64,000 nt of DNA from Polytrichum commune (Eukaryota > Streptophyta > Polytrichopsida > Polytrichales > Polytrichaceae): assembly GCA_950295325.1 (NCBI GenBank), contig OX485803.1, positions 7,874,001-7,938,000 on the forward strand, in the 5' to 3' direction. A program made the position numbers and the translations under genes. The notes under the pieces are model-generated. The model ran no database searches, was not told the DNA's origin, and saw only the letters and a program-made list of their open reading frames with translations. Numbering within the stretch: the first letter of the stretch is position 1; each line of letters opens with the position of its first letter. Shown here piece after piece: positions 32,927 to 57,730 of the stretch.

Positions 32927-34700
32927 CTTTACTTGCAGGAAGGATCCTCCTTCCATGCTTCCTTCCTCTCCATCCTTTTCGTCCCCTTTAATACTTCCTT
33001 CCTCTTCTTCCACTCTCCACAAAATGAAACCCTCAACAATGAGGTTGGGTTTAGGGTTTTGGGGGAGGTCATGCGGATGTGGGCCTCCCCCCTAGGAAGG
33101 TAAGCCACATGGAGCCCACCACTACATTGACACCCATTCCAAAAAAATCACATTTTACCTTCAAAGTGGAAATCAAACTTATGAAGTTGCCTTTGAGGAT
33201 GATTACTGACTTCCTCCTCGTCATTTTGAGATGTTTGTTATGATGGGTTGTTCGTTCTTTCTAAACAACCAATTTCAAGAACTCCAAGTTGCGAGCCCCC
33301 TTCATCATCATTGACACTTTTTGCAATTGTGTCAAAATTCAATACATGCGTGGTCTTGCAAACATCAAGGTCTTTTACTTTGCACATCATTCTCTCCAAT
33401 TTTGACCTCATCAATTGCTTGGAACTAGAGTTTCAATTGAATGACGTCTTTTGTCTATGTCTTCTTCCAAGCGTTGATGTTCCCATGGTTACATTTGACT
33501 TTATGCACTGCCTACACGGAGTCGATATACAAGATCCCAAGATTTGAAAAAAACCAATAGACACTCTCACTCATGCATTGCTAGTTGTTGTGCATAGGGT
33601 TATATGTTTCTTCATTATTTTCCCTCCAAAATATGCCATTGAAGTTATTATTATATGTGACCATCATTTGCATGTGTTTGTTGGTGCGCAACACACACAC
33701 ACACACACACACATTTCTAATCAAGATACCATTTCCATATAAATTGAAACGCTATTGTTCGTGACTTATATTTATATCATTCTAGATCCTTGACACTAAG
33801 AGTCATTTTGTTTAGGGTTTATAATCATGTATGTGATTATTCATGTGGTGATGTATTGATTAGCAGTCTTTGTTAGACTCTATTTTAAATGTGTAGAACA
33901 ATAATTGTTCCATGTTTATTATAGTACTTTGTTGTCGAGAAGAAGTATATGAGCCCATGGAATGGATTCCAGCCCTCTCGTGAGGCCACGTCACCTTTCA
34001 ATTTCTGTCCGTCCGATGAAATTTTGTCTTCATGTCTGCCGTCGATTTTGACCGGAGCTTAACCGGAGCTTAGCTGGAGCTTTTGGCCATTCCTCCCTTG
34101 CATGTTCACATGTTCTGTTACTGAAGTTGCATGCACCCGATTGACGAGGACGGAAAGCTGGCTCTACGGAGAATGCACATATCTTCTTCTATTGCGTCAA
34201 CCCATTCGATCTGTTGTGTACAACTATTGGGCGAGTAGGAGGTGCGTCCGAACCCATTTCTTTCGTGAATCCGATCTCTCACCTGAAACCAAAATGTTAG
34301 CTGAGATCTCGCATTTGGCACTACGGAATCCTCAGAAGCTATGGCGGCATCCACTCAATCGCAAATCTCCTACTCAGAATGCGTGGGTGCGAGTACCGCC
34401 TCTGGAATGGGATACTGTCATTCGGATCACTGTGAGGGGTGGTGATGTGATTGGGTGGCTGGGGATTGATGTGCTCTCCACGTCTTGGGTCACTATAGGT
34501 TTCGTAGTTGTGGACTTAATTTATTAGTCTCCGCTACTATTTCAGAGAGTAATGTATAAGTCTTGTCGCTCTGTAGTGTCTCCCTGTGTGCGTCCTTACA
34601 GATGTGTGTTGATAAAATCTATATTTACAAGTAGGTATGGCTAGGGTTGAGAAAGAGTGAAGCTATGGTCCTGTAATTCTGGCCTGATGATTTCGCTCAA
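32927..34700. other. Intergenic; unassigned open frames and a (CA)n run
   Basis: A (CA)n run lies at 33691-33713. The minus strand at 33550-33250 is open for about 100 codons with protein-like composition (MGTSTLGRRHRQKTSF) but no family I know. The plus strand has a 141-codon open frame at 34102-34527 without a recognisable domain. It could be another captured fragment of the cluster that follows. Confidence 0.3.
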
Positions 34701-36882
34701 ATTTGTCACGACGACTACTATGCAGGAAGCTGGTGTGGTCTTTCCACATGCAGAAAGCTGCATTATTGAGGTGTGCTGAAGACTCCTTTTCGCTTCCATA
34801 CATTGTTGAGATCGATTCTTTATTCCGGTCTCTTCCTCATGTGGGTGGACATGAATTCGCCGGCCATTCTTGCTGGTGGTAGGACTGGCTTTTAGAATAT
34901 GGAAATGACCCTGTGATCTGATTGCATAAATCCAGAATGTAGGATAATATTCTCAAGATTGTTCGTTGTGAAGTGGACCATCTGTGTAGCATTGTGCTAT
35001 ACTTCGTGAATCCAGTGAAAGTTGTAGGGAAGTGCTGACACTCTTCATATTTACAATTTGGATCTGGAGTGCAGGCTTCGAAAGAAAATGCGGGGGAGTG
35101 ATTATAGCAGACTATTTGTGATGTAAAGTGGGGATTAGGGCCGATCAAAGGAGGAGGACTTAGGCAGGCGGTGGAGATTATCAAGTGGGAGTTAGTCCCT
35201 ACTACCCTAATTTAGTTTGCAGGAATGCAACGCTTAAATATGGCTGCGCTGTTGCCGCAAAACAAAGGTCGAAAGAAAGGGCCTTACAAAGGTCGAAAGA
35301 AAGGGTCTCAAAAATGTTATCAAAGTAGACCTTACAATATCTGGTGGTGAGAATATCTGCTATTACGTCTCAGAAAATTATATCCATTTTGAAGTCTGGA
35401 AGCAGAGAATGAGGTGTCTGATTTACTTCCAGGTTAGCTTTCTGATGTGCATGGTTGCAGCTCTCAAACTCAAAAATGAATACTCGGGATGTGCAACCTC
35501 TAGATTTTGTGAACTTAGTTACAGAAGATGCTTCATCACCCACATTTGAGTCTGATTCTTTCAAGTAAGATTCAAAGCTATTTTCACTTTTTTGTATCTC
35601 AATATTTGAACAATGAAAATATAGCTCTAGTGTTCTCTGCACTTAAAGATCTTCCTTTTAATTCTTTAGTAGTGTATGGTTGTCAGAATAGTCCTGCAAT
35701 GTTCCTGCATGTGAACATGGAATGCCATGTTTAGGAAGTAGGAAAGGTATCCAATCTCTCATTGTTGATCTCTGGTGTTGTTTTGTGATTGGGCCTGCAG
35801 AGCTGGAATGCTTTATAATGTGTTGCAGACTGTACGTGGATTTGCTGGTATTTACAAAGACTTTATGTCATTTCCCGAGACTTTCAACCCCTTCATATCT
35901 TTGTTACAAATGTTGAAAAGGGATGTTTCACTTCCAGAGAGTCTTTTGGCTTGAAATAAAGAAGTAACTGAGAGTCTAGAAGAGAAGCTGAAAGAACATG
36001 AGAGGTTGCGGCAACCTTTGCGCATGCGAATGAGCAAACCTGTACCCATCAAAATGTACAACCCAGTGTTTGAAGACAAGTAAGTACATCACCTCTTTAG
36101 ACAACTCTCGGTGTAGTCTGACTTTTTTGTTGTGCTTGTCTGTCTTTTCAAATACTTCAAGTAAATTCTATGGTTGTTCTGGTACATAAGGTAGACCGGT
36201 GTTGATCCAACATAGCAATAATGTGAGCACCTATATTGGAGTGTATGTAGTTAGGTGTGGATGTAAGAATGGACACCAAAAAGGCATCATGTACCTTAAA
36301 GAGATTGGACTATGTGCTCAAAATTTGTTATCCATTCTGTGCTCAATAGTCAACATAATTGGTGGCAGATATATATGACCATTTAATGAGCTTGAGAAAT
36401 CAAGAAATATGAATATCACATCTTGATATTCATATGAGCTCTGAAAATAATCAGGGAATTGGCTATGGGCATGATTTGGATTTTCAATCATCTTGTACTA
36501 ATTTTGTGTTTCATATCCTATGAGAAGTAGGTGCATTAAGAAAAGTGTCTCAAGGCCCACTTACCTGATGTGAATATATCTGATTTGTACTTCTTTGGGG
36601 TGGGGTGTTTACAACTTTGTTAAAAGTAGGGACTATGATCCCAATCGTGAGAGAGCATAAATGAAGAAGCTCAAAAAGCAGTTGAAGAGAGAAGCCAAGG
36701 GTGCAGCACGTGAGCTTCGGAAAGACAATTATTTCATAGCAGATGTAAAGGCTGGTGAAAAAGCTGTGGCACAACAGGAACGAGATGAAAAGTATCGTAG
36801 AGCTATGTCCTTCTTAGACCAACAAGAGTCCGCCTTCAAATCTGGACAACTTGGCAAAGGAAAGAAGAGGAAAAAACGTTAG
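34700..36882 (+). pseudogene. NOP14: NOP14 (nucleolar protein 14) C-terminal pseudogene
   Basis: NOP14 is a U3 snoRNP-associated factor of 40S ribosome maturation. Three exon-like blocks are clear: up to 35564 (TRDVQPLDFVNLVTEDASS, donor GTAAGA), 35801-36079 (FAGIYKDFMSFPETFNPFIS, RLRQPLRMRMSKPVPIKMYN, donor GTAAGT) and 36630-36882 (DYDPNRERA, then KREAKGAARELRKDNYF and a lysine/arginine-rich end). Splice phases between the last two agree. In-frame stops break it: TGA at 35952-35954 and TAA at 36658-36660. 34770-35440 gives weaker resemblance (EDSFSLPYIVE) with many stops. Most of the ~900-residue protein is missing. The final exon is an ordinary match to the NOP14 end, so this is a fragment copy, not a functional gene. 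Confidence 0.75.
36210..36570. repeat. Dispersed repeat, copy 2 (inside the NOP14 pseudogene)
   Basis: This interval sits in what was the last intron of the NOP14 copy. It matches 19440-19880 ('gatattcatatgagctc', 'gattggac/gatttgga', 'tttcatatc', 'aaggcccac') and 52380-52460 ('gattggactatgt.ctcaaaa'). Confidence 0.55.
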
Positions 36883-37663
36883 ATCAGCCTTGAAATCTCA
36901 CGGGTACGTGTCATATGGGATCTGGCTATACTTCTCCCCTGGTTGAACTGCAATTTCTCCATCCACTGTATGATGGGGTTGCTTAATAGCGGGATATGCC
37001 AAAGGTCCGAGGGGAATTTACAAAGAGCACACAGATAGCTTGGATGTTTGCCCTTCATTCCTAAACACTGTCCTATTAGTGCTCTATGTTAGCAACCTCA
37101 ACATTTCTGAGACGAGGCATTCTTTGAAAATTGAGATATAGCTTCAGTGCATCATATGCATTTCTATCAAGCACATTTCATATGTTTGTGGTAATTTTGT
37201 AATGGGATGTATTGCTTGGGCATCAAGAAGTGGTGACAGTTTTACATGGACAGCTCAAGTCAAACTTGTATTTGACCAATGACTGATGCGATTAGTGAGA
37301 TATGTTTACAAGTTCGTCCTAGGGCTACACGTCTATACACTTTTGTCAGTGAATGTAGGCACCACTGTTTCCACACAATTTTCACACAATGTTCATTCTT
37401 TCCACTCTTCAATGGAGCATATTCTCTTGGTTTAGTGATCTTGAGTGATTGCAAAATAAACATCTATAATACACATGCAGAATTGACATGCAAAATTTGT
37501 CAAAGTCATGCAAATCTGGCAGCAAGGTCAAGTTCTCCACTATTTTCACCGTGTACCTCAACTTCCTTGTCTGTAATGTGTGTTGCAAACATAGTGGATG
37601 CAGTTTTTAGAAAAGTACAAACTTACTTGACTACATTTGGTCTTCTGAGATCACTCTGGTGTA

Positions 37664-38212
37664 ATGAAAGAGAAGGAGGTCTGGCACAAACTTGCTCATT
37701 ATGACCATGCCGACGATAGCATACCAGATCCACCACAACGTCTGTTTGAAATTTCTGGAAAAGTTGAAAAAATGTTTTTGTCCAAAAAACGGGAAGTGTG
37801 CCACTTCAACGTCTACACCATAACTTGCAGGTACTCTACGTATTCCCATTTGGTTTGATATTTCCTTTTCTGTTATAGAAATATCTCTACAATCTAATTT
37901 CTAAACTACGCTCTCCTTTCTACTAGGGCCAACGGACGGGTCTACGTGGGGCAAACGATATCACCGCATGCAAGATACCTACAACATGCCCGCTCTCCAC
38001 CCCTCAAGATGAGAAAGGACGCTAGGACTTACCAACCATTTCTAGCTCACTTTCAGCTGCAGATAGTCTTTACAACGGCAAGGGAGTACCTTGCCGATAG
38101 GAAGGAGAAACAGTTGATACGTATGTATCAATCTCAACCAAATAAATCCTACAATATATTAAGGGGTACACCGTCGGCGGACCCTTTGTATTGGATATTG
38201 AGGAGAAAATAA
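37664..38212 (+). CDS. Single-domain GIY-YIG nuclease-like protein
   Basis: Two exons, 37664-37830 and 37927-38212, join in frame (AG|gtactc ... ctag|G) to 150 aa, ending in RRK and TAA. The first ~45 residues are a charged leader (KEVWHKLAHYDHADDSIPDP). The rest has the GIY-YIG layout: VYTITC, then NGRVYVGQT, an arginine in HARYLQHAR, the conserved glutamate in RKEKQLIRMY, and the asparagine in SYNILRG. These correspond to the two tyrosines, Arg, Glu and Asn of the catalytic site. Such domains cut DNA in UvrC, SLX1 and homing endonucleases. No partner domain is present, so the role is unknown. It lies between same-strand gene fragments, but unlike them it has no stop or frameshift. It may be a real small gene or the cargo of a mobile element. 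Confidence 0.65.
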
Positions 38213-39009
38213 TAAATATATGTTTCCATTCCAATATGGAATTGCTGAGTATGCATCTCTCTGTCGTGTATTTGGACGTACCGTAAATCTGAATTCAAGT
38301 ACAGATTCTATAAACATGATATTGTATTGATGATATGCAAAGCATAACACCTTAGTGTTGACTTTTCAATGGTGAAAAATCCATAAGTGTCACTACAAAC
38401 TAGGATTTTTATGTATAATTCTTTAAGAAAATCAGAAAAATCAAAATTCATACATTTCTATGCATAATGAATTCACACATTTCTCTCGACTTCTTATTGC
38501 TTCTTATTGCTCTCTTTTGTCTTCTCTTTTGCTTGTGAGGGATGCCGCCACATCCAAGAAGTCAAGAAGAAGGTGAGATTAGGGCAATATGAGATTACCG
38601 TCAATATGAGGTAAGTCTCCGACCTTGCTGTTGATTTTTTTACCTATTTTGCTGGTAGTTTGTAACGTAATTAGGTGAAACATTTGCACAATTTTGAAAG
38701 ATTCCACCTCAAAGGTTTTTTGTTGGCTTGCAGAGTCCTGGATCACTTACAGGACCAAAAGGATTTGTACCAATATCACAAAGCCCGATTTTTGATGTTG
38801 GAAGAGTAACATCTGAAGGTTGAGCTCCAACCCCCTCACAAAACAGTTTAGGTGGTGATGTAATATCTACATTTTATAGTCCACTTTAAAGGTGGAGCTG
38901 ATATTTATTTTGGTGCTTTCTATATATCTTGAATCTTAATTTTGTCTCAGTTCACAAAAGCAAATCATCAAACTTACAAGTTGCATTTATGGATGTCAAT
39001 CTGCTGCAG
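38213..39009 (+). other. Spacer with possible further exon debris
   Basis: Plus-strand stretches after splice-like acceptors read SPGSLTGPKGFVPISQSPIF (38730 on, stop at 38822) and PPHPRSQEEGE (38547 on, ending near a GTAAGT). They may belong to the same source gene as the exon at 39010, but I cannot show it. Confidence 0.25.
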
Positions 39010-39112
39010 AGTTTTTTCACCCAAAGCTCATGCCATTTCGACTTGCTAGGGAGGGGCGTGTATGTGTCCGCTCCATAGACTGGTCTCCACAAGGCTTAGC
39101 ATCTCATGGGGG
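39010..39112 (+). pseudogene. Isolated WD-like exon, TFIIIC delta-type
   Basis: An open block between an acceptor (tgcag) and a donor (GTAGGT) reads FFHPKLMPFRLAREGRVC, then RSIDWSPQGLASHGG. The 'R-S-x-x-W-S-P-x-G-L-A' pattern is like the N-terminal WD repeat region of the TFIIIC delta subunit. Only one exon is present, so I treat it as a captured fragment. Family assignment is tentative. Confidence 0.3.
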
Positions 39113-39665
39113 GTAGGTTTTGCTAATCACAAATAGTGGACTATTCTTTATACAAAATCCCAATGTAGGGTTTCTGCCTGAAATTGATATAGCATGTTTC
39201 TTTTGATTGTTCTGTTTCACTAAAAGATTTGACTGATTATCCTAGATTTTTGTTTAAGGGGGTCATGATTGGATATTATATGTATTACACTGATCTATTA
39301 TTTGCACAAATTGTGCTTGTGTATAGTCCAGGTTTAGCTTGACCTGTTGCACTTGGATGTGGACCAAAGCATTGCTGACATTCTTTCTGCAAACAACTGC
39401 ACGTCATCGCATGTTAGTTTTAGAAACCAGTCAATGCCACCCTTCTGTTGCTACCTATTGTAGAATACTTCCTCCTTCGGCATTCAATAAATCATCATTC
39501 TTGAAAGCTTGCCAATGATAATCTTACAATGCAATTTAAGTTATTATGTGCTTGTTTAATATTTACCTAATCTGATTTTCTTACAACTGAATCCCCATTT
39601 GAGATGAAGTGTGGTATTTGTCAGCAGCTGTCCTCACAATTGTCTTACTTTATTTGCCATGACAT

Positions 39666-39749
39666 ATTCTCGACACAAATCCACAGCTGTTTTTCCACTT
39701 GCAGCAGCAGCGACTGATTGAGCTGATCCGTGCCGGCAAAATTGAAGAA
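39666..39749 (+). pseudogene. GID8-like (CTLH) exon fragment
   Basis: Twenty-eight codons read ILDTNPQLFFHLQQQRL then IELIRAGKIEE, ending at a possible donor (GTAATG). This is the CTLH-domain core of plant GID8 (At1g61150: ILDTNPELFFHLQQQRLIEL). GID8 is part of the CTLH/GID ubiquitin ligase. Upstream the frame is broken directly before ILDTNP, where the parent exon should continue, and no other GID8 exon is nearby. It is a fragment. Confidence 0.75.
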
Positions 39750-39887
39750 GTAATGGTCACGGGATAAATATGCACTGGCTTGTGAGTCAATAGTAATGAA
39801 CAAAGTTTTTGCGGAACCATGTGGTCTTAAATATGCTCGGACATGATATGGAGACAAGGTTTTGATTTATACTTCTGCATGAAACAG

Positions 39888-40004
39888 GTGAATATCTCCA
39901 TGGTGGTGGATGATGAAGATGCTCCAAGGTGTGTGCAGGAATTGCACAAAGTATTCTGGCCTGAATCAGACAGGGCTATGTTGAAATCAACTATTGAAGT
40001 TTAG
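39888..40004 (+). pseudogene. Aspartate kinase last-exon fragment
   Basis: After an acceptor (aaacag) 38 codons read VNISMVVDDEDAPRCVQELH, then KVFWPESDRAMLKSTIEV and TAG. The pattern NIS-x-x-V-x-D-x-x-A-x-x-C-V-x-x-LH-x-x-F is the end of the second ACT domain of plant aspartate kinase, the first enzyme of the lysine/threonine pathway. No kinase domain is nearby. I read it as a captured last exon. Confidence 0.55.
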
Positions 40005-41960
40005 AAACAGTTTCCCACACTAAAACGGTTGTAGCTTTTTTCCGAGCAAAGAAACATTCTTTTCAGGGATTGAGACTGTCCTCACTGTTCAACACCGGGC
40101 AGTGGGGACTGAGGAATTGTGAGAAGCTAGTCAGATACAGAGCAGACCTCACTTATTGACTGGTTTAGCTCAGGAATTCTGCTGAGACTTGTGCTTTTGT
40201 TAGAGATCATTAACTCGAGTCATTTTATCCTGAAATATTCATTCAGATTTGCTGGGCAAATGACCTTTACAGGTGCTTGTGTAACTGTCACAACAGTGAG
40301 TGGGGGTTGGCAGTCATGTCAAAATGTAGCAAATTCTTGATATTCAATACGAAGACCTTCAAACCTTGAAGCCTGGGATATGTACTCCTTTCAATTGGCC
40401 TTCTTGCTTCAACCGGTGGGAAGTCATGTATACCATCCATTTTCTCACCAATTAGATCTAACAGGTCTCGCAGATGCTGAACCATCCTACTTGCATATTA
40501 CTGCCTCTTCAAAATGATCCATGGAATTTTAAAGCATGGGCTGGTTATCCACCTAGGCATCCAAGATTTTGTGATGTGAAAATTAGATGTGGACCAAATT
40601 AAGATGGGAACTAAATGCTTATATGACATACACACTGATATGTGCAATTAGGTTGATCCTTGCTAATTTTTTGACACTCACATAGTTATGAATATTCATT
40701 ACCATTTAGTAACAAAACAAATGAATTTATGTGGTTGCTATATGGTGTGTAAACAAAGTTTTAAGATTTTTTGATCTGGTTTTGGCCCTAGTTTATTTGC
40801 ATGCGTAAAGAGCCAACATATTCATGAATGTAGCCTAATTGCACATACCAGTTTTAGTGAAAGTAAGCATACTTCCACATGTGGTGATGGTGCTACACTG
40901 TTCATCGTAATTAGTGTCACTTACTCTGGAGTTACACCACGTTTTAACTTTTTTTACTTGTGATGTAAGATTTCACAAAGTAAAGTTGATTATGTTCTAT
41001 AACCCTAAACAACCTATTTGACCTAGTATGTTGTCAAATAATGATATATATACAAAATAGTAATAGCCTTGTGTAGTTCCAAATAGTATGTGACACAAAA
41101 TGCCATAAAGGATGTGGTGACGCATCTTCATTGGCAATAACTATGTTACAATGCACTCCGAGATATATTAGATTAGGCACATTCTCTTGTGGGGTCGTCG
41201 TTGTGCATCAAAACTCCAATACCCATATGCACACTTCCTAACACAACTTAATTGACATTATTGAAGGCCATCTTATAATGGCTTACATTATATCAATCAT
41301 CCCTATGTTAGGTGTGGGCCAGATTTCAATGCCAAGATCAAAAATCAAACCATTCCATATTGTTTTGTAGTTGTTTTCATGATTCTTTTGGTGTAAGCAT
41401 CACTACCTATTTCCCAAACAAACTCTCTGCTTTGCCAACTTCCTTGCGGACTTCTTCTCCCACCAGCGGTGGGCCTTTGGCCCCTAGCGGCTCGTTTTAT
41501 GTATTACCGGTTGAAGCCAACTTATCCCCTTGTTGGGTGCTATGACTTCTAGCCCCTTGTACAACCAACACATTGGACACCATTCATTACAACTAAGTGC
41601 ATTTGGCTGCATTTTGATGTGTATCCATCATCTTTCTTCATGGCTACCATCCGTGCCCTTGGATCCTTTGTTCCCGTCACCTTGCCCATTGGTGATGATG
41701 ATTATGTGGTTGTCTTGGAGGATTTGCTAGATTGGAGATTTAGCCTCTAGCTAGGGAACATGTATGTCGAGCAAGAAATGTGTGTTGTAGATGGAGATGT
41801 TTTTGAAACAATCTTGGTGCAAATGAATAGGAGCAAAGAGGGTGCCATGTGGACTTTGGGCCCAAGTTCATTAGGGTTATGACTTTTTGATTTCCAAATG
41901 CAAGCTTCAACTATTTATGCACACTCTTGGCATGTCATTGGCAAACTCATGGGTCATGTA
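40005..41960. other. Intergenic stretch after the gene fragments
   Basis: A minus-strand open frame of 65 codons at 40288-40485 (LRDLLDLIGEKMDGIHDFPP) has protein-like composition but no family I recognise. 40.55-41.3 kb is AT-rich with 'gtgacac/gccataaaggatg' words like the TIR elements of this window. Plus-strand frames at 41312-41730 look like chance. Nothing else is seen. Confidence 0.3.
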
Positions 41961-56111: not shown

Positions 56112-57730
56112 AGAAGAAGAGAAACTTCGGTCTTCGTTAGGAGGCCGACGTGAATGAAGTGTCTGTTCGTTCCACCCCTAGACCTAAGCCCATTGGGCAG
56201 AGGAATAGAGGTATAGAACTACTTCCCCCTTTCGAGAGTAGACACTATAGTCACAAGTAACCAATAACAGATAGAACCAATACCCAATAAGGATTGGTTA
56301 GTCTTGGATTTGTTTGGTGCAAGGTTTTAAATCTTGGTGCTTTAGATTCTAGTGGGTGTGTTTGCATAAGTATTGGGAGTGTGATGTTTATGTCACCTAG
56401 CAGTCCGTCTTTCGCGTGGCAGGGGGAATTGTGTCCGTTACCGATATATACTAATGTGATTTTAATTATTATATTTTTAGTATTTATTTATTATTTATTT
56501 GTTGACTAGGGGGGGTCTTGTAATTGAGGTAGAGGTTGATTATTTTCTAATCTTCTTTTGTGGAGGAGGATGGACATGGCATATTGTATGGCAATGGTGT
56601 TTATGTTTTTAAAGGTGTTTCGAATGGCTGACATAGGTAGTTTGAATTTGTCTTCAAGTATTTTCATTGATGGGGTGTGTGTTGCAGCTCTAGCGCCTGC
56701 CGTAATAACGATGATCGGGTCAATTTTCCAGCCTTTAGCGGCTATGTTTTCTATTAAGGGTCTATATTTGTTAGCTTTAGCTTCAAGTGTTTCCGATGAG
56801 AATCTGTCGTTACAGTATGTGAATTCAATGAATTGTATGATAAGATTTGGTCAATATTTGTGGGTGGTTCGTTTTGGTATGGCAACCCTTTAACGCAGAG
56901 GATGTCGGGTCTAAATCAGGCGTTATAATGGCATCTTTGGGTTCCACATGTACATGGTAATAGCCAGTTAGGGACGGTGTTTTCTTGGGGGTTATTATTG
57001 AATGTACCAGCATTCATGAGAGTGTAACATCTGGATTTTTCGGACGATATTAGCATTTTTCTTATTTCCCATACAACTTTGTTATGTCTTAATCAGGCGT
57101 TATAATGGCATCTTTGGGTTCCACATGTACATGGTAATAGCCAGTTAGGGACGGTGTTTTCTTGGGGGTTATTATTGAATGTACCAGCATTCATGAGAGT
57201 GTAACATCTGGATTTTTCGGACGATATTAGCATTTTTCTTATTTCCCATACAACTTTGTTATGTCTTTTAACGTGAAGTGAGTATATATGTTGTTGTCTA
57301 CATGTAAGTAGTACGTGTAGCCACGTGTCTGGTTCATATGAGTTACAGATAGGACAAGTAATGGTAGGGTATCTTTGCCTGCCAAAGAAGAGTTGTTTTC
57401 TGGCGTGGCCCATGTAAGTTCCCGTACGAAATTTGATGAGGCAAGATTTTTGTTTGTCTGTAATATTAGGGTTGTTCCAGAATTCATTGGAGAGTTCTTT
57501 GTCGATGTTTGCATTTCCTATCCATTTATGGATATTAGGGGTGTGTGTGGCCATAGGTTCTAGGTTTTTTATTCTATCGTATTTTATAATTTGTTTTTCT
57601 AGGAATCTAACGAGACCTTTGTCTGGTGTGTCTATCATGGAGGGCCATTCGTCTTTTTGATAGTAGTATGGTATAACGTGGGCATGTTCGAATGGATGTA
57701 TAGCGTTTTCATGAGGTAGGCCTAGGCCTT
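56112..57730 (-). mobile_element. 5'-truncated LINE with restriction-like endonuclease tail, inserted in the older LINE
   Basis: Flanked by an exact 15-bp direct repeat (56097-56111 and 57731-57745). From 57719 the minus strand is open (HPFEHAHVIPYYYQKDEWPS..., 181 codons from 57638). It carries a zinc motif CPICNSYEPDTWLHVLLTC (CX2CX9HX4C), then KRHNKVVWEIRKML and CTCGTQRCH. After a 177-bp duplication and a frameshift the rest follows: RPDILCVKGLPYQ, IQFIEFTYCNDRF, WKIDPIIVITAGARAATH and INTIAIQYAMSILLHKRR (to about 56530). A CCHC motif followed by a PD-x(n)-E-type domain at the C-terminus is the arrangement of R2-like (RLE-type) LINEs. The RT domain is missing, as expected for 5' truncation. 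56530-56112 would be the 3' UTR. Confidence 0.75.
56914..57267. repeat. Perfect 177-bp tandem duplication
   Basis: 56914-57090 and 57091-57267 read identical base for base, from 'aatcaggcgttataatgg' to 'caactttgttatgtctt'. The duplication lies inside the RLE-type LINE fragment and breaks its frame after CGTQRCHYNA. Confidence 0.9.

Follow-up and report, generated by a model that had tools for sequence, protein, structure and literature searches.

The 64,000-nucleotide stretch of the Polytrichum commune genome analysed here (hereafter the window, C1:7874001-7938000) carries at 33935-41494 what is very probably a non-autonomous, Helitron2-like rolling-circle transposon that has grown stepwise by capturing pieces of host genes, and that also holds a remnant of a GIY-YIG nuclease gene of its own element family. 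The genome assembly comprises 408 Mb in 64 contigs (at least 7 of them 42-78 Mb long), and DNA searches of it find matches at about 90-100% for most of the element's length, in varying combinations; the mosaic of gene pieces in the window is far above chance expectation. An earlier note, made from the sequence alone, had described a cluster of gene fragments at 34700-40004 and had proposed Helitron capture. The unit proves to be larger, and Helitron capture gains support from shared termini, a sister element inserted without target duplication, relatives that share its 5′ end and carry Rep, and donors at separate loci.

The features of the element are given below. Fragments were identified with Pfam on the reading frames of the window and, for short exons, through genomic DNA matches to donor loci; L-numbers denote fetched loci, in particular L005 (a relative at C1:7.76 Mb), L006 (C5:1069510-1074182) and L055 (C3:47236501-47246500).

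33935-41494, plus strand: whole element, non-autonomous Helitron-type, TC...CTCG, 7,560 bp (copies aligned at both ends, empty site of a sister)
33935-34051, plus strand: Helitron 5′ end, 117-119 nt being 100% identical to five other loci
33937-33946, plus strand: 5′ arm of the asymmetric terminal inverted repeat, GAGAAGAAGT, 2 nt from the end (5′ copy alignment, coordinate check)
34090-34232, plus strand: two short pieces common to L006 and L005, joined with the 5-nt overlap ATCTT (DNA matches, junction comparison)
34232-35363, plus strand: piece without recognizable domain, possible donor C3:24733353-24734413 (DNA match)
35364-37659, plus strand: NOP14 fragment, the last two profile-matched exons (694-861 of 862) with introns (PF04147, parent comparison)
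37660-37769, plus strand: Helitron sequence ahead of the GIY-YIG gene end, matching L022 and L005 (DNA matches)
37770-37779, plus strand: 10-nt filler at a deletion junction (junction comparison)
37780-38212, plus strand: truncated GIY-YIG gene of the Helitron family, with partial exon, intron and last exon (Pfam, DNA and protein matches)
38213-38495, plus strand: former 3′ region of the GIY-YIG-bearing family, cut inside its terminal repeat (DNA matches, 3′-end alignment)
38482-38644, plus strand: sequence common to L006, L005 and L024 (DNA matches)
38639-39365, plus strand: TFIIIC-delta fragment, donor C1:50808789-50809678, minus strand (DNA match)
39571-39748, plus strand: GID8 fragment (CTLH exon), donor C5:46929671-46929850, minus strand (DNA match)
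39749-41211, plus strand: last exons and 3′ tail of aspartate kinase, donor on C3 near 15.21 Mb, common to several elements (DNA matches)
40247-40250, plus strand: 4-nt filler ATTT in place of a missing aspartate kinase intron of about 240 nt (junction comparison)
41212-41494, plus strand: Helitron 3′ end (matches among copies sharing the 3′ terminus)
41450-41459, plus strand: 3′ arm of the asymmetric terminal inverted repeat, ACTTCTTCTC, 35 nt from the end (3′ copy alignment, coordinate check)
41459-41473, plus strand: short hairpin CCCACC-AGC-GGTGGG ahead of the 3′ end (fold prediction, stability no better than shuffles)

The search for elements sharing the ends, which the earlier note had suggested, was productive on both sides. 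For the 5′ end, 21 near-complete matches including the window are listed and 20 were aligned (C4:26656380 was left out); the start base is identical in all 20 (86-100% identity), with unrelated flanks, and the start reads TCGAGAAGAAG in 19 copies and TTGAGAAGAAG in one (L033). The base preceding TC is G in 16, A in 3 and T in 1 of these copies, and a T stands at position -3 in 20/20. For the 3′ end, 24 other places listed reach the end or nearly so, and 22 of these were aligned together with the window; the terminus is CTCGT in 23/23 copies and CTCGTT in 22/23, with unrelated flanks beyond. The terminal inverted repeat of the window element is 10 bp long and asymmetric (GAGAAGAAGT / ACTTCTTCTC). 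No convincing TC...CTRR ends had been seen earlier, and rightly so, because the true ends are TC...CTCG with an asymmetric inverted repeat.

An empty-site search with the joined flanks of nine elements was informative only for the sister at C4:14993760-15005933. Specifically, 41 of the 42 matches listed span the joined flanks as unoccupied copies of a high-copy repeat (L078-L085 plus 33 other places; 91-96% similarity across about 255 bp), and all eight fetched empty copies are gapless, reading CTAGTTA(A/C)C, with the join between CTAG and TTAAC. This gapless target indicates a precise insertion without target duplication, with TT outside the element, and together with the aligned copies it gives the exact borders as TC...CTCG. 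The same observations bear on the alternative raised in the earlier note, namely that a Pack-MULE (a gene-capturing Mutator-like element) or another cut-and-paste element captured the fragments. A 1.36-kb MULE-like insert with inverted ends of about 34 bp and a 9-bp flanking repeat (GTCAAGAAG) does exist in the sister L005 (L005:5674-7028, C1:7765674-7767028; not in the window copy), but long terminal inverted repeats are missing at 33935 and 41494, the window ends match Rep-bearing elements, and the resolved C4 sister insertion lacks a (9-bp) target duplication, which makes this alternative extremely improbable.

A rolling-circle element also agrees with what the relatives encode. In a profile search, Helitron_like_N (PF14214) matches at 34 places in the genome, and 10 of the 21 loci sharing the 5′ end of the window have a same-strand Rep domain 3.9-6.7 kb further downstream; at the other 11, window included, no Rep match is listed within 10 kb. 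The stretch C5:24937951-24950530 (12,580 bp, TCGAG to CTTG) has on one strand Rep (1.1e-23), the PIF1 helicase PF05970 (7.9e-20) and GIY-YIG (1.4e-4, an E-value just at the cut-off), with Rep/helicase spread over several frames, none of them mended. An apurinic/apyrimidinic (AP) endonuclease was not found in a non-exhaustive scan of 10 frames from three copies (six from C5, one from C7 and three from C6), and neither RPA nor reverse transcriptase appeared in the frames scanned.

The NOP14, TFIIIC-delta, GID8 and aspartate kinase fragments, all on the plus strand, had been recognized earlier and are borne out by Pfam and by DNA matches to donors. Judging by exon matches and DNA identity, which define donors here (full-length reading frames were assembled for none), the four named fragments come from four separate loci, on C7 (NOP14), C1 (TFIIIC-delta), C5 (GID8) and C3 (aspartate kinase). 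In the window, three frames match the NOP14 profile PF04147 (E 1.6e-16, 1.2e-7 and 1.6e-4; only the first passes the cut-off), corresponding to two exons with an intron between them, 35796-36080, interrupted by a TGA, and 36613-36831, a stretch that also has a TAA. The parent at C7:37637279-37644055 (minus) gives nine matches without stops, covering the profile from 3 to 861 except about 135-238 and 614-693, and outside C7 the only matches are the window and C1:7761460-7762479, both at about 694-861 and both with the TGA in the first exon. Missing exons standing in order nearby, named in the earlier note as evidence against capture, did not turn up for NOP14, the rest of whose exons are on a different contig; for the other pieces, the best DNA matches are on C1 (43 Mb away), C5 and C3.

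The TFIIIC-delta exon is 98.8% identical over 519 nt to C1:50.81 Mb, where further exons stand both before and after it. Its identity comes from the joined exons of this donor, which match PF12657 (E=8.8e-12); single exons give no PF12657 match, a genome-wide PF12657 search gave none either (its control was silent too, hence this is no evidence of absence), and a PDB search with the joined exons returned nothing significant (best 0.14, GTF3C4 at 0.32). The GID8 exon is 99% identical to C5:46.93 Mb (minus), where LisH and CTLH exons stand in order. L055 contains a GID8 fragment too, immediately upstream of a diverged Rep/helicase that has a GIY-YIG gene of its own, and this host gene may have been captured a second time there.

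For aspartate kinase, an ACT_9 match at 39831-40001 (E=0.0005) is under the cut-off, and the DNA is continuous with the C3 locus. This donor (C3:15.206-15.213 Mb, plus) has PF00696 kinase exons (profile 2-53 and 169-214, with a TAG within the second stretch) and ACT exons upstream of the captured part, and a joined query matches the aspartokinase 2cdq (7.8e-35), chiefly over the donor exons. A GIY-YIG match (C3:15219728) lies about 7 kb downstream, so the donor locus itself may have been visited by GIY-YIG-bearing elements. Another element of the family, at C1:7440720-7445048, has, in addition to the tail, a catalytic exon of aspartate kinase (PF00696 profile 2-53), which points to a wider capture of this gene. 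The fifth fragment of the mosaic, 34232-35363, was added to those recognized earlier and matches C3:24.73 Mb with 98.8% identity across 1,061 nt; DUF2839, a candidate for it, fell below the cut-off (0.074 and 0.086) and was not used.

The junctions between the pieces preserve part of the capture history. Neighbouring pieces overlap by 5 nt at 34181-34185 and by about 2 nt near 35363, and two other joins contain fillers of 10 nt and 4 nt. Compared with the C7 parent, the window and L005 have in common the NOP14/Helitron junction (37659/37660), the TGA, a 111-nt deletion and a 345-nt insert, and the shared junction indicates that NOP14 was captured once. At 44 of 1,959 compared NOP14 sites these two share a state that differs from the parent, at 7 only L005 departs from the other two sequences, and at 19 only the window does. 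In L005, a Rep-bearing relative 150 kb away, more of NOP14 survives, lying between the Rep and GIY-YIG matches of that copy. The 345-nt insert lies in the NOP14 intron (window about 36197-36541), and similar stretches occur elsewhere at about 70-80%. Aspartate kinase stretches matching C3 extend to 2.7 kb in L009 and are shorter in L011, and the GID8/aspartate kinase junction is identical in L008 and the window. The family's former 3′ end is cut at 38495, inside its repeat, and from there the sequence continues as far as a second 3′ end, at 41494, consistent with the old terminator having been lost or bypassed. Sequence comparison itself demonstrates the ends, the donors, these shared junctions and one NOP14 capture in common with a Rep-bearing relative.

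All four loci compared (L006, L008, L009 and L012) have an aspartate kinase intron of roughly 240 nt that is gone from the window (40246-40251) with near-exact borders, as might be expected if a retrotransposon or a spliced-RNA copy were involved, that is, if a chimeric transcript had been reverse transcribed. We find such an origin scarcely credible, since intron sequence is kept in NOP14, the other examined junctions do not fall at a donor-acceptor pair, neither poly(A) nor a target duplication is visible at the ends, and the intron loss leaves 4 extra bases, fitting end-joining repair. For the intron itself, spliced-RNA copying was set aside and the loss is read as end-joining, because the other junctions are not spliced introns. 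Similarly, the differing combinations in which the pieces occur among loci could suggest that independent insertions and segmental duplications had piled up here, in place of a single element, but a related mosaic lies between the same 5′ and 3′ ends with unrelated flanks in L006, and a pile-up is therefore very unlikely.

For a single mobile element, the following course can be proposed. Rep/helicase supplied by related copies would nick the element at its TC end, copy one strand and insert it beside TT, while host DNA would enter at breaks or template switches within elements, so that the joined pieces overlap by 0-5 nt or have a short filler between them. Aspartate kinase may have been captured first (longer versions persist in sister elements), and GID8 would have been joined to it next (the junction is common to one sister); NOP14, TFIIIC-delta and the unnamed piece would then have been added through recombination among elements. 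In one event the old 3′ end would have been lost and a downstream 3′ end used in its place. This order of captures is the one that we infer from the junctions and sister elements.

Several observations weigh against this account. The empty-site check proposed in the earlier note succeeded for the sister element, whereas the window's own empty site is absent among the best-listed candidates, which in the joined-flank search were all taken by one repeat, and the window borders rest on other copies. The relative L008 lacks the 3′ end, its homology ending at 41418, and L005 lacks the usual 5′ start. Predicted end hairpins are no more stable than shuffles; at the 5′ end the best hairpin falls outside the repeat arm and again does no better than shuffles. 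In the GIY-YIG-bearing family the 3′ ends have no hairpin, and 2/9 read CTTG or CTCA. Among the copies seen, none shows Rep/helicase with both ends and every frame open. The 44 NOP14 sites cannot be polarized with three sequences, and it is the shared junction that carries the argument for a single capture. Finally, the mobility of the element is itself deduced from sequence.

The GIY-YIG gene in the middle of the cluster had been taken for intact in the earlier note. In fact, the domain (37898-38209, E 4.3e-5 in Pfam) belongs to a gene of which only the last exon and part of the preceding exon are kept, starting at 37780 behind the 10-nt filler, and this is a remnant of the element family's own accessory nuclease gene, cut short, and no host capture. 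A captured host gene was considered and rejected after genome-wide protein matches and the clustering near Rep loci. The protein search of the genome gave 70 matches, merged by hand into 58 loci (12 rows are second pieces). GIY-YIG is found within 20 kb of 17 of the 34 Rep loci, on the same strand in 15, compared with a mean of 0.19 and a maximum of 3 near Rep under random uniform placement of the GIY-YIG loci (5,000 trials), a count in which copies of one family are not independent. The other 17 Rep loci have no GIY-YIG within 20 kb, and the link is not universal among those listed. Five of the 15 same-strand pairs belong to diverged families (58-67% protein identity), with GIY-YIG upstream of Rep in three (C2:47.2, C6:28.26 and C3:34.5 Mb) and downstream in two (C3:47.2 and C1:37.1 Mb). 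The domain scores best (3.1e-10) at C6:28.26 Mb, where a 608-aa Rep frame lies in one 10-kb stretch with it.

Among the 27 aligned GIY-YIG stretches, one of which is cut short, 18 are free of stops and 9 have a stop. Between the main family and the others, nonsynonymous divergence (dN) is 0.24-0.41 and synonymous divergence (dS) at least 1.3 or saturated; diverged pairs with a computable ratio give dN/dS of 0.13-0.65, and within the main family, where changes are too few, ratios run from 0.14 to 1.46. Judging from these figures, which are rough, the gene is under purifying selection between families. When 12 GIY-YIG-bearing loci were inspected for their 3′ ends, 9 showed one, ACTTCTTCTCTCACCTCT followed by CG in 7 and by TG or CA forms in 2 (L013 and L059), with TT directly after in 9/9 and the 3′ repeat arm 10 nt from the end; no such end was visible in the other three (L077, L021 and L019). 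The Helitron2-like lineage studied here probably carries a long-standing multi-exon GIY-YIG nuclease gene of its own, separate from Rep/helicase and placed either up- or downstream of it, whose product may do nicking or strand resolution.

Gene-capturing plant Helitrons hold several intron-bearing host gene fragments per element, with related mosaics in many copies. The window element resembles them in both respects. It shares with the Helitron superfamily the Rep and PIF1-like helicase of relatives with its ends, and insertion without target duplication at the C4 sister, an observation that covers the sister and not the window copy itself. As in Helitron1 the 5′ end is TC, but the 3′ end is CTCG in 23/23 copies and not CTRR, and the base before TC is mostly G (16/20), unlike an insertion between A and T. 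Canonical Helitrons end in CTRR, and plant ones often carry RPA-like genes (PMC5148889); here, CTRR is absent and RPA was not in the frames scanned.

Helitron2 elements (Bao and Jurka 2013, PMC3627910) are described with an asymmetric terminal inverted repeat of 8-15 bp whose 5′ arm lies within 0-2 bp of the end and whose 3′ arm is subterminal, about 20-30 nt in, and precedes a hairpin, with a 5′ hairpin involving the 5′ arm, insertion after TTTT, and Fanzor1 as accessory gene. The likeness lies in the Rep/helicase relatives, the asymmetric repeat (10 bp, GAGAAGAAGT) with its 5′ arm 2 nt in, the subterminal 3′ arm, the 5′ T and the lack of target duplication, and the asymmetric repeat places the element nearer to Helitron2 than to TC...CTRR elements. 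Differences are (i) the position of the 3′ arm, at 35 nt in the window family, which has a short hairpin, and at 10 nt in the GIY-YIG-bearing family, which has none, (ii) insertion between TNN and TT, (iii) a 5′ arm hairpin unsupported by folding and (iv) GIY-YIG instead of Fanzor1. Therefore, the ends point to a Helitron2-like element, and full Helitron2 membership is not claimed.

Helentrons, in turn, have Helitron2-like ends, insert at TT and encode an endonuclease of retrotransposon origin (PMC5148889), an AP endonuclease (PMC6431247). The present elements resemble them in the ends, the TT and the possession of an endonuclease besides Rep/helicase, and differ in that the nuclease is a separate multi-exon GIY-YIG gene. 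GIY-YIG nucleases have been tied to a Mariner-type element, rotifer retroelements and Penelope-like elements (PMC3627910, PMC6431247, PMC9033089); the last are likewise mobile elements with such a nuclease, but are retroelements with reverse transcriptase (PMC6431247, PMC9033089), whereas the nuclease is paired here with Rep/helicase, and the frames scanned contained no reverse transcriptase. In mainly open-access literature, as far as the portions covered go and with Repbase outside the search, no report of a GIY-YIG nuclease in Helitrons was found.

Gene capture by Helitrons is already known, and the new part is the conserved GIY-YIG nuclease gene. In nicking or strand resolution it may take the part that a second endonuclease could play in Helentrons, and it may so be another route to a second nuclease in such elements. 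If GIY-YIG is a working part, rolling-circle transposons would be linked to a nuclease family of retroelements and homing introns, and a test would be at hand of why such elements repeatedly acquire a second nuclease. The locus is also a readable stepwise record of Helitron-type gene capture, with donors, intermediates and a sister's empty site in one genome. Elsewhere in the window, a 177-bp tandem duplication with 99% identity lies at 56909-57262.

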